Shown piece by piece: positions 14,508 to 19,121 of a stretch of DNA of 39,959 nt (position 1 is the first letter of the stretch; every line of letters begins with the position of its first letter). The notes under the pieces are model-generated. The model saw only the letters and a program-made list of their open reading frames with translations. It was not told the origin of the DNA and searched no databases. A program made the position numbers and the translations under genes. Source of the DNA: Candidatus Vogelbacteria bacterium RIFOXYB1_FULL_42_16 (GTDB lineage: Bacteria; Patescibacteriota; Minisyncoccia; Phycocordibacterales; XYD1-FULL-46-19); NCBI GenBank assembly GCA_001823055.1, contig MHTH01000010.1:7316-47274 (forward strand), read 5' to 3'.

Positions 14508-14698
14508 AAAAAAAGACCGTTGAAAACGGTTTTTTATAAGAGCCGCTGAGCAGGAATCACTGCTCGGCTTCGATTAACTCAGCCTGCGCTTTAGAAACCC
14601 ACGGTTTCTAACACTCCGCCAGCTGGCGAAGCTGTTTTCCTCCACGGGAGACCAAATGTTCTCCCGACCCCACTCTTCCGTTCAATCCTACTCAACGG
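14508..14698 (-). ncRNA. Candidate structured non-coding RNA with paired ends and terminal intrinsic terminator
   Basis: 12-bp helix between 14687-14698 and 14543-14554 (two G.U on minus strand only), inner hairpins including ttagaaacc-gtg-ggtttctaa and cgggaga...tctcccg, terminator accgtt-ttc-aacggt-c-T7. Confidence 0.55.
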
Positions 14699-14731
14699 AA
14701 AAAGATGACACATTTGTGCCATCTTTTTTTG

Positions 14732-14804
14732 AGCCGCTGAGCAGGATTGAACTGCTGACCTCGTCATTACCAATGACGTGCTCTACCAACTGAGCTACAA
14801 CGGC
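14732..14804 (-). tRNA. tRNA-Thr(GGT), CCA not encoded
   Basis: RC gccgttg...cagcggc-t; anticodon stem/loop cgtca-ttGGTaa-tgacg. Confidence 0.93.
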
Positions 14805-15697: not shown

Positions 15698-16372
15698 TTA
15701 TATCTTTTTTATAACATCAATTGACCCTAAAATCTCATATTGCAAATTCGAACCCTTATTAACCACCAATCTTAATATTCCATAATAAGATTCATAATTG
15801 CCATAGACCTTCTTAGGCGTAGTTTTTACATAATATGTATTACCAAATTGATTTAATGGTAAGTCTAGCAAAAAAGACCAGAATTTCAAGACCTTATTTA
15901 TTCTAGGTTTATGAATTTCGTTTATTTGTACGGTCGGTTTAAATAACTCTTTCGACACCCCATGAACCTCTCTAAAAAACTTATACATGATCCTTATCAT
16001 CTCAGGATCAGAATTGACAAATATAGTCCTACTCCCGTTTTTACTTCCTTCTCCCCAATACAGAGACGTACCAATCATCATCAAGTCTCTCTGTGAAATT
16101 TTACCCATCTTTTTTCTAGCTTGTTCCCTCTGATCGTTTACATTTTTTTCTTTCTTCTTACGATTCATTTCTGCACCCTTCATCCTCCCAGCCAATCCAG
16201 CTTTAGTGACTTTTTCAGTTAAAAAATTTACTTGGTCCAAACCCAACAAGATATCTCTACACCACAAGCTAACAGTGCTTTTAGAAACACCCAATTTTGT
16301 AGAAATCGCACCAAGACTTTCTCCCATCTTTCTCATCTCTCTTGCCTTATTTTTTTCTAAATACTTTGACAT
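15698..16372 (-). CDS. HTH plus LAGLIDADG-like endonuclease-type protein
   Basis: N-terminal 'KAREMRKMGESLGAISTKLGVSKSTVSLWCRDI' HTH; 'LMMIGTSLYWGEGSKNGSRTIFVNSDPEMIRIMYKFF' resembles LAGLIDADG-type repeats; lies between two tRNA genes. Confidence 0.6.
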   Translation of the reverse strand: MSKYLEKNKAREMRKMGESLGAISTKLGVSKSTVSLWCRDILLGLDQVNFLTEKVTKAGLAGRMKGAEMNRKKKEKNVNDQREQARKKMGKISQRDLMMIGTSLYWGEGSKNGSRTIFVNSDPEMIRIMYKFFREVHGVSKELFKPTVQINEIHKPRINKVLKFWSFLLDLPLNQFGNTYYVKTTPKKVYGNYESYYGILRLVVNKGSNLQYEILGSIDVIKKI

Positions 16373-17377: not shown

Positions 17378-18793
17378 TTAGCGAACGATCTCTCTCCCTA
17401 AAGCAAAGAGTAAATCTTCACTCCAGTGCGGGCCGGTAATCTGCAAACCAAAAGGCAAACCGGTTCCATTTTTACCAGTCGGGACTGACAGAGCTGGCAC
17501 ACCGGCCAAATTGACTGGCACGGTAAAAATATCTTCCAAATACATTTGAAGTGGATCACTGGTATTCTGACCAAGGGGAAAAGCTACCGATGGTGCGGTC
17601 GGCGTAATCAACACATCAACCTTGGCAAAAGCTTTCCGATAATCTTCAGCGATCAATCGGCGCAAGGCGTCAGCTTTGCCATAATAAGCATCATAATAAC
17701 CAGCCGATAAAACATAGGTTCCGAGCATGATGCGACGTTTGACCTCCTGACCAAAACCAGCACCCCGTGACAGAAAATAATCTTCGATCATGTCCTGACC
17801 ATCCACATGACAACCATAGCGCACGCCGTCAAAACGAGCCAAGTTGGTCGAGGCTTCAGCTGGCATCAAAATATAGTAGCAAGCCAGAGAATAATGCAGA
17901 TTGGGCATCTCGATCGGGAAAATTTCGTGACCCTGTTTTTTGAGTAGTTCAACTGTCTCATCGAAATTTTTTCGCACTTCTTCGGTCACTCCGGCACCCA
18001 GTAAATCATAAGGCACGCCAATTTTAAATTTAGCGGGAATTTTTGACGTCGCTAGATCATCGGTACTAGTCGAATCAAATTTATCTTGTCCACGAATAGT
18101 TTTAAAGATCAGTTCGGCATCATCAATTGTCTTGGCAATCGGTCCGATTTGATCCAAAGACGAAGCCATGGCCATCGCGCCATAACGACTAACAGCGCTG
18201 TAGGTTGGTTTCAACCCCACTGCCCCACAATAAGAAGCTGGCTGACGAATCGAACCGCCAGTGTCCGTGCCCAAAGCCACCAAAGCCAAATCACCACCCA
18301 CGGCGGAGGCTGAACCGCCGGACGAACCACCTGACACTCTTGATAAATCATGAGGATTTTTTGTCGGGCCATAAGCGGAATTTTCAGTTGAACCACCCAT
18401 AGCAAATTCATCCATATTGGTTCGACCTAAAAAAATCACTCCGCCTTGTTTTAATTTGGCGATCACCGTGGCATCGTAAGTAGCATGATAGGTCGTCAAC
18501 ATTTTTGAAGCCGATGAACAAATCCGGCCAGCAATTAAAATATTGTCTTTAATTGCCATAGGAATACCCGCCAGAGGTCCAGACAATTCACCCGCTTTTA
18601 TTTTTCGATCGACTTCATCGGCTTGAGCCAAAGCATCGGTAAAAACTTCCAGATAAGCATTGAGATCAGCGTTGCGCGTCGAGATTTTTTCTAAATAAGC
18701 TTCAGTCAAATCATGCGCACTAAACTGACCAGACCGGATCGCCTCGCCCGCTTTTTTAATATCTAATTCTGCTAAGTTAATTATCTTCGCCAT
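17378..18793 (-). CDS. gatA: Glutamyl-tRNA(Gln)/aspartyl-tRNA(Asn) amidotransferase subunit A
   Basis: Amidase signature 'GGSSGGSASAVGGDLALVALGTDTGGSIRQPASYCGAVGLKPTYSAVSRYG'. Confidence 0.95.
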   Translation of the reverse strand: MAKIINLAELDIKKAGEAIRSGQFSAHDLTEAYLEKISTRNADLNAYLEVFTDALAQADEVDRKIKAGELSGPLAGIPMAIKDNILIAGRICSSASKMLTTYHATYDATVIAKLKQGGVIFLGRTNMDEFAMGGSTENSAYGPTKNPHDLSRVSGGSSGGSASAVGGDLALVALGTDTGGSIRQPASYCGAVGLKPTYSAVSRYGAMAMASSLDQIGPIAKTIDDAELIFKTIRGQDKFDSTSTDDLATSKIPAKFKIGVPYDLLGAGVTEEVRKNFDETVELLKKQGHEIFPIEMPNLHYSLACYYILMPAEASTNLARFDGVRYGCHVDGQDMIEDYFLSRGAGFGQEVKRRIMLGTYVLSAGYYDAYYGKADALRRLIAEDYRKAFAKVDVLITPTAPSVAFPLGQNTSDPLQMYLEDIFTVPVNLAGVPALSVPTGKNGTGLPFGLQITGPHWSEDLLFALGREIVR

Positions 18794-19082
18794 GATCTAA
18801 AATTTGTTTGACGACAAAAAAATTATCGTCTGATTTGGGCGCTTCAGCTAAAATTTTTGCCGTATTGGCACCAGCCATGAAGGCATCATTATCTTCGCGC
18901 ATGACATTGGTCAGATAATGATCATCGGCAGAAAGTTTGCGATCAGCGACCGGCGCATTTTTTAATTCAGAAATATAGCCGAGAATCGATTCGAAATCTC
19001 GTTGAAATTTTTGTTTTTCTTCTTGACTTAAAGCAATACGGGACAGCTCGGCTAATTTGTCGATTTCTTGCTCGGTAAACAT
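18777..19082 (-). CDS. gatC: Glutamyl-tRNA(Gln)/aspartyl-tRNA(Asn) amidotransferase subunit C
   Basis: 'EIDKLAELSRIALSQEEKQKFQRDFESILGYISELKNAPV', overlaps gatA start. Confidence 0.9.
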   Translation of the reverse strand: MFTEQEIDKLAELSRIALSQEEKQKFQRDFESILGYISELKNAPVADRKLSADDHYLTNVMREDNDAFMAGANTAKILAEAPKSDDNFFVVKQILDHGEDN

Positions 19083-19121
19083 AAAGGCATCATAGCATAA
19101 GCCATAAAACTCGACCAGACA

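Follow-up and report, generated by a model that had tools for sequence, protein, structure and literature searches.

A structured segment between two tRNA-Thr genes belongs to an apparently undescribed family of tiny, probable insertion elements without genes in Patescibacteria

What is the strongly folded segment that lies between two tRNA-Thr genes of Candidatus Vogelbacteria bacterium RIFOXYB1_FULL_42_16, a member of the Patescibacteria, whose genomes are very small? It occupies positions 14508-14698 of the window, by which we mean the whole 39,959-nt stretch of DNA that was analysed, and the initial annotation had proposed that it encodes a structured minus-strand RNA of ~190 nt. The helices and hairpins described there are all present in the sequence, and those of the minus strand at 14540-14698 are real. 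Folded alone, the minus strand of 14540-14698 reaches −65.6 kcal/mol (z = −4.06, 0 of 200 shuffles as good), with a 13-bp closing helix around three hairpins (cgggaga/tctcccg, cttcgcc/ggcggag, and ttagaaacc/ggtttctaa), whereas the plus strand takes another fold, at only −52.6, in keeping with the strand preference that had been claimed. DNA parameters give z = −4.02 for the same segment, with the closing helix not formed. When both flanking terminators are included, the minimum-energy fold takes other pairings and leaves the closing helix unused. The terminator that had been reported is real (14516-14530), and no promoter was found for the element. No plausible CDS lies within 14508-14698, as had been stated, which rules out a small protein.

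Known RNA families were ruled out by cmscan at both thresholds for the window. Only tRNAs scored above the gathering threshold, and the best subthreshold matches (18.2 and 15.3 bits) fell far under their cut-offs, which bears out the earlier failure to place the segment among 6S, SRP, RNase P, tmRNA, or T-box RNAs. Other cores of the family described below had no Rfam match at the gathering threshold either. What had been missed is the origin of the closing helix, both arms of which copy the 3' end of the adjacent tRNA-Thr(GGT) gene. The parts of the window copy are as follows, in the order in which they are read on the minus strand.

14731..14804, minus strand: the target gene, tRNA-Thr(GGT) (ARAGORN, Rfam tRNA).
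14731-14746, minus strand: D1, the copy of the duplicated gene end that forms the last ~16 nt of tRNA-Thr(GGT) (repeats).
14699..14728, minus strand: bidirectional terminator-like hairpin aaaaagatggcacaaatgtgtcatcttttt between D1 and A' (inverted repeat I2).
14680..14698, minus strand: A', an inverted copy of the T-loop, T-stem, and acceptor 3' side of tRNA-Thr(GGT), forming the 5' arm of the closing helix, with two G.U pairs (repeat I1).
14556..14679, minus strand: conserved core of the element (covariance model R1 match of 2.1e-14 in its own genome; blastn relatives in the family).
14645..14666, minus strand: hairpin HP1 (CGGGAGA...TCTCCCG), preceded by a near-invariant GGGGTC (covariation, three-way test).
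14635..14645, minus strand: near-invariant unpaired GUGGAGGAAAA after HP1 (alignment A1).
14612..14634, minus strand: optional middle hairpin, present in only some copies.
14591..14611, minus strand: hairpin HP2 (UUAGAAACC GUG GGUUUCUAA), with the conserved loop region CCGUGGG (covariation).
14540..14555, minus strand: D2, a direct copy of the tRNA-Thr(GGT) 3' end, 16/16 nt identical to it (repeat D2), forming the 3' arm of the closing helix.
14508..14531, minus strand: terminator after D2.

Positions 14680-14698 form an 89% inverted repeat of 14734-14752 over 19 nt, and 14540-14555 repeat the tRNA end directly, so the closing helix consists of two copies of the neighbouring gene end. The tRNA itself holds the third copy, and the core lies between A' and D2. 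Elsewhere in the window, between two tRNA-Met genes (15698-16372, minus strand), a 224-aa HTH-like protein with a YWGEGSK motif has only weak Pfam HTH matches and is perhaps homing-type or tRNA-linked.

Relatives of the core occur in 11 of the 16 genomes of the window genome's family, with up to 9 copies. A core pattern had at least 116 matches among the species genomes of GTDB, almost all of them in Patescibacteria and mostly in Parcubacteria/Paceibacteria among the matches listed; two matches (L108, L133) look like chance, and one in a Bacteriovorax bin (L033) is probably mis-binned. With a covariance model, the family was found in 34 of 380 Patescibacteria genomes sampled over the phylum, in many families and with 1 to 8 copies each under stricter filters. 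The distribution is thus patchy, multi-copy, and phylum-wide. Phage origin was rejected, with no match in phage records and none for the core pattern in the IMG/VR contigs scanned. The segment remains, as first proposed, structured, minus-strand-specific, and outside the known Rfam classes. Rather than being a noncoding RNA gene that stands alone at this locus, it is a member of a dispersed family, whose copies appear to be tiny insertion elements without genes. That family is apparently undescribed: no description was found in the literature searched, although such absence is no proof that none exists. Two further arrangements were seen among the copies. Behind one tRNA (L191, on G058:C2), the D-A'-core unit forms a tandem array whose last unit is cut right after GGGGGTC, and other REP-like hairpins are nested in the HP2 region of some copies (cccgcccgcaacgcctgagcttgcgatggcgggcggg in L012, L026, and L023; gaagtactcctgtggt in L031, L111, and L123).

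The compensatory base changes expected of a structured noncoding RNA are present in HP1 and HP2. Across 107 distinct cores, 94.6% of pair cells hold standard pairs compared with 82.6% after shuffling, and HP1 and HP2 pairs carry 221 double changes compared with 63 (0 of 500 shuffles); the cores are related to one another, which the shuffles do not take out, so that these pair-count controls overstate independence. The two main hairpins covary strongly among homologues, whereas the closing helix is kept only in part. G.T pairs outnumber A.C pairs on the element strand (41 vs 13), which indicates that this is probably the strand that folds, as RNA or as single-stranded DNA alike. In a three-way test, the hexamer before GGGGTC also covaries with the 5' strand of HP1 (0 of 2,000 shuffles, a control that likewise leaves relatedness in place), which suggests an alternative pairing.

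Of 132 distinct copies, 96 have a tRNA or tmRNA gene on the same strand no more than 100 nt upstream, with 35 kinds represented including tmRNA, and examples at the remaining sites follow rpmG, rplL, rpsI, and fusA. Rare copies (L043, L049) are antisense to their genes, one at a tRNA-Phe end and the other at the murD start, and that strand is the one their arms copy. Most copies share a common plan in which the left part of the gene is followed by D1, the inverted A', the core, and the direct D2. The functional end of the gene is D1, of which A' is an inverted copy and D2 a second direct copy on the far side. In most copies the arms match the copy's own gene, including those of the copies at rpmG, rplL, rpsI, fusA, and the murD 5' end. 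For tRNA sites, A' scored 33.7 on average against its own tRNA and 16.5 against other tRNAs (83% above the 95th control percentile), and D2 scored 32.1 and 16.8 (73% above it), while some copies have no detectable D2 or A'. The preferred tRNA entry point expected of an integrative element that restores the gene end is present: T60, within the T-loop, is the most frequent start of D2 (21 of 93 copies), and G53 the most frequent limit of A' (38 of 93). The direct repeat holding the 3' end of the target gene, likewise expected of such an element, is also present. D2 is ~90% to 98% identical to D1 across the tRNA end. A' matches D1 at ~98% in the T-loop part and at ~52% to 77% over most acceptor positions, and because this acceptor part is so often mismatched, the long closing helix of the window copy is not a constant feature. 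A constant 2×2 internal loop at the insertion point in that helix was rejected as a general trait, being confined to some junction classes.

Comparison of copies and sites points to mobility. In FW305_bin.8, an identical core lies behind tRNA-Gln and tRNA-Lys, whereas the arms differ, each matching its own tRNA. Between two genomes of one genus (G013 and G014), one tRNA-Cys site is filled and the other element-free; the right flank is shared, and past D2 the filled genome continues with the sequence that the element-free genome has behind its tRNA. Three other genomes (G006, G007, G008) have tRNA-Thr(GGT) and tRNA-Thr(CGT) 10 to 53 nt apart with no element, compared with 243 nt in the window. 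In G001, broken tRNA-like fragments lie between its two tRNA-Thr genes (L308). An element-free rpsI site was also sought in G014, in whose assembly no rpsI gene was found. Movement is inferred from shared cores and element-free sites, not from direct observation.

These comparisons bear on the possibility that the segment is a structured host regulatory RNA acting in cis on its tRNA or gene, in which A' would alternate between pairing with D1, which would sequester the tRNA end, and pairing with D2, as an attenuator-like switch of tRNA maturation. The mutually exclusive D1:A' and A':D2 pairings, the covarying hairpins, the three-way covariation of the hexamer with HP1, and the strand bias towards G.T are all in its favour. 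The element nevertheless occurs in only 9% of the sampled genomes and beside other genes each time, the same tRNA is found with and without it within one genus, and L043 and L049 are antisense to their genes. The incomplete match of A' to D1 over most acceptor positions also counts against it. RNA-level D1:A' pairing was rejected as weak: transitions compatible with wobble pairing outnumber incompatible ones (60 vs 41), but there are 96 transversions. Taken together, we consider a regulatory role of this kind unlikely.

If instead the copies are insertions, the question becomes which of the two gene ends is the newcomer. Comparison of D1 with D2 in protein-coding targets gives 59 synonymous and 4 non-synonymous codon differences, counted at hand-collected sites with a recognisable D2, so that decayed D2 copies are under-counted. 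This imbalance suggests that an end brought in from elsewhere takes the place of the resident gene end. Where D1 and D2 differ, G/C third positions are more frequent in D2 (35 vs 14 in D1, P = 0.004); in this respect D2 is on the whole closer to the gene body, D1 being richer in A/T. In an rplL copy (L192), A' is perfect to D1 and not to D2. These patterns are most simply read as the arrival of D1 together with A' and the core, which leaves D2 as the displaced resident end. The fusA copy has identical D1 and D2, and L195, where D1 equals D2 over ~75 nt as plain duplication would give, counts against end swapping. Nor does the tRNA-Cys copy fit simply: its D1 and D2 are near-identical while A' differs and keeps the sister species' version, so that selection or conversion would have had to correct D1 afterwards.

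The same repeats could be a passive by-product of template switching during replication, in which A' would arise by snap-back at the terminator, the core by a switch to another copy, and D2 by a return to the gene end. D1, terminator, and A' do frequently combine into a single long hairpin, which in L021 and L072 is nearly perfect, and the T-loop sequence common to all tRNAs is a possible microhomology. Template switching leaves unexplained, however, the copies in unrelated protein genes, the strong hairpin conservation and invariant core bases, and the synonymous differences between D1 and D2, and it appears improbable to us. Somewhat less probable still is an intron-like element, in which RNA splicing would take out D1-A'-core and join the gene to D2, with both ends functional and A' serving as an internal guide for both exons. 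A' does span the junction as a guide sequence would, covering the last 7 nt of the left part and the start of D, and the close identity of D2 to D1 across the tRNA end, with coding sense kept, would suit splicing. The gene is nevertheless already completed by D1, the core of ~80 to 120 nt has no group I/II match, the antisense copies L043 and L049 could not splice a host transcript, and in L118 D2 lacks the normal end of L33.

The preferred reading, to which we assign a probability of roughly 0.6, is that a non-autonomous, ORF-less insertion element of ~120 to 250 bp that swaps gene ends has inserted at the T-loop of tRNA-Thr(GGT), its folded core probably being the element's recombination site or RNA. 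The mobile unit would be D1-A'-core, entering between tRNA positions 59 and 60, in the T-loop, or at an equivalent site, and bringing its own gene end, so that the resident end is displaced and remains as D2. The folded A'-core-D structure would be the site or RNA read by a recombinase acting in trans, and since recognition would then be based on structure and not on sequence, many different genes could serve as targets.

No integrase is encoded by the element, the copies seen being ~0.2 kb, and no recombinase was linked to the family; Phage_integrase gave 1 to 2 matches in 15/15 genomes tested, with or without elements, so a Xer-like recombinase does not discriminate between them. Y1 transposase is absent from six copy-bearing genomes (G012, G014, G009, G229, G058, G104), and an IS200/IS605 or REP origin was rejected on that ground. 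Reverse transcriptase is present in 19/34 genomes with elements and 115/346 without (Fisher P = 0.013), a weak association, and none is found in G013, which has 9 copies, or in G058 and G104. A reverse-transcriptase-driven element (group II, DGR, retron) was therefore rejected as well.

Behind other tRNAs in the same genomes lie quite different cores on the same plan, tRNA-D1-A'(GGANTCGAA)-core-D2, for example TCGAAAGACTTTTCGTTACC...CGAAAAGTACCCGCCCCCGTAGGGGGAGA, and those scanned have no Rfam match. Such loci lie downstream of tRNAs and tmRNA (L284, L266, L030, L068, L217, L205, L145, L077, L253). In the window's own genome, the rpsI 3' end is duplicated with synonymous changes around a different insert of ~65 nt (L299, G000:C1 ~18734-19114). 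With these different cores and the rpsI duplication in mind, the type-1 core described here may be one of several core families. More tentatively, and with doubt outweighing confidence, a structure-recognised, target-complementary unit guided by A' could move as folded RNA or single-stranded DNA and swap essential-gene ends across Patescibacteria, with several unrelated core families built on one plan, and would then be a new kind of mobile element.

Several known systems share part of this plan. Integron gene cassettes with their attC sites are small and use a recombinase in trans acting on a folded single strand whose structure is more conserved than its sequence. The element would resemble them in its small size, its folded single strand, and a recombinase supplied in trans. 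An attC identity was nevertheless rejected: the window copy lacks the paired RYYYAAC...GTTRRRY boxes, with GCTGAGC in place of GTTRRRY (reading of 14540-14555 and 14680-14698), has no cassette ORF, and takes its arms from the target gene. The guide-exon pairing of group I/II introns has a possible counterpart in A', which bridges the insertion point and might pair on both sides of it; the element differs in having no Rfam match, in being very short, in leaving the gene complete without splicing, and in that some copies are antisense. Like REP/MITE and IS200/IS605-derived palindromic elements, it is short, hairpin-rich, dispersed, and non-coding, but its ends are not fixed, being copied from each target, and several copy-bearing genomes lack the Y1 transposase. 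In the integrative elements of streptococci, tyrosine integrases act at the 3' ends of tRNAs, rplL, rpsI, and rpmG, and rarely at 5' ends, leaving direct repeats of 12 to 54 bp of the gene end (PMC4701971). The kinds of target gene, the restored gene end, the direct repeats with the gene 3' end, and the rare 5'-end insertions are shared with these ICEs and IMEs and their att-only derivatives (PMC4701971). The present element, however, is ~0.2 kb, encodes no integrase, places one core behind 35 tRNA/tmRNA kinds and several protein genes, and carries, next to a covarying core, the target end once more in inverted form.

A gene-less element of ~0.2 kb that sits behind tRNA, tmRNA, and ribosomal protein genes, usually with copies of the gene end found there, would represent a novel form of parasitism in which essential genes are exploited but not killed. 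Definite, testable predictions follow from its inverted arm and from the exchange of gene ends that differ synonymously. More generally, a strong covarying structure between genes is not necessarily a host noncoding RNA gene.
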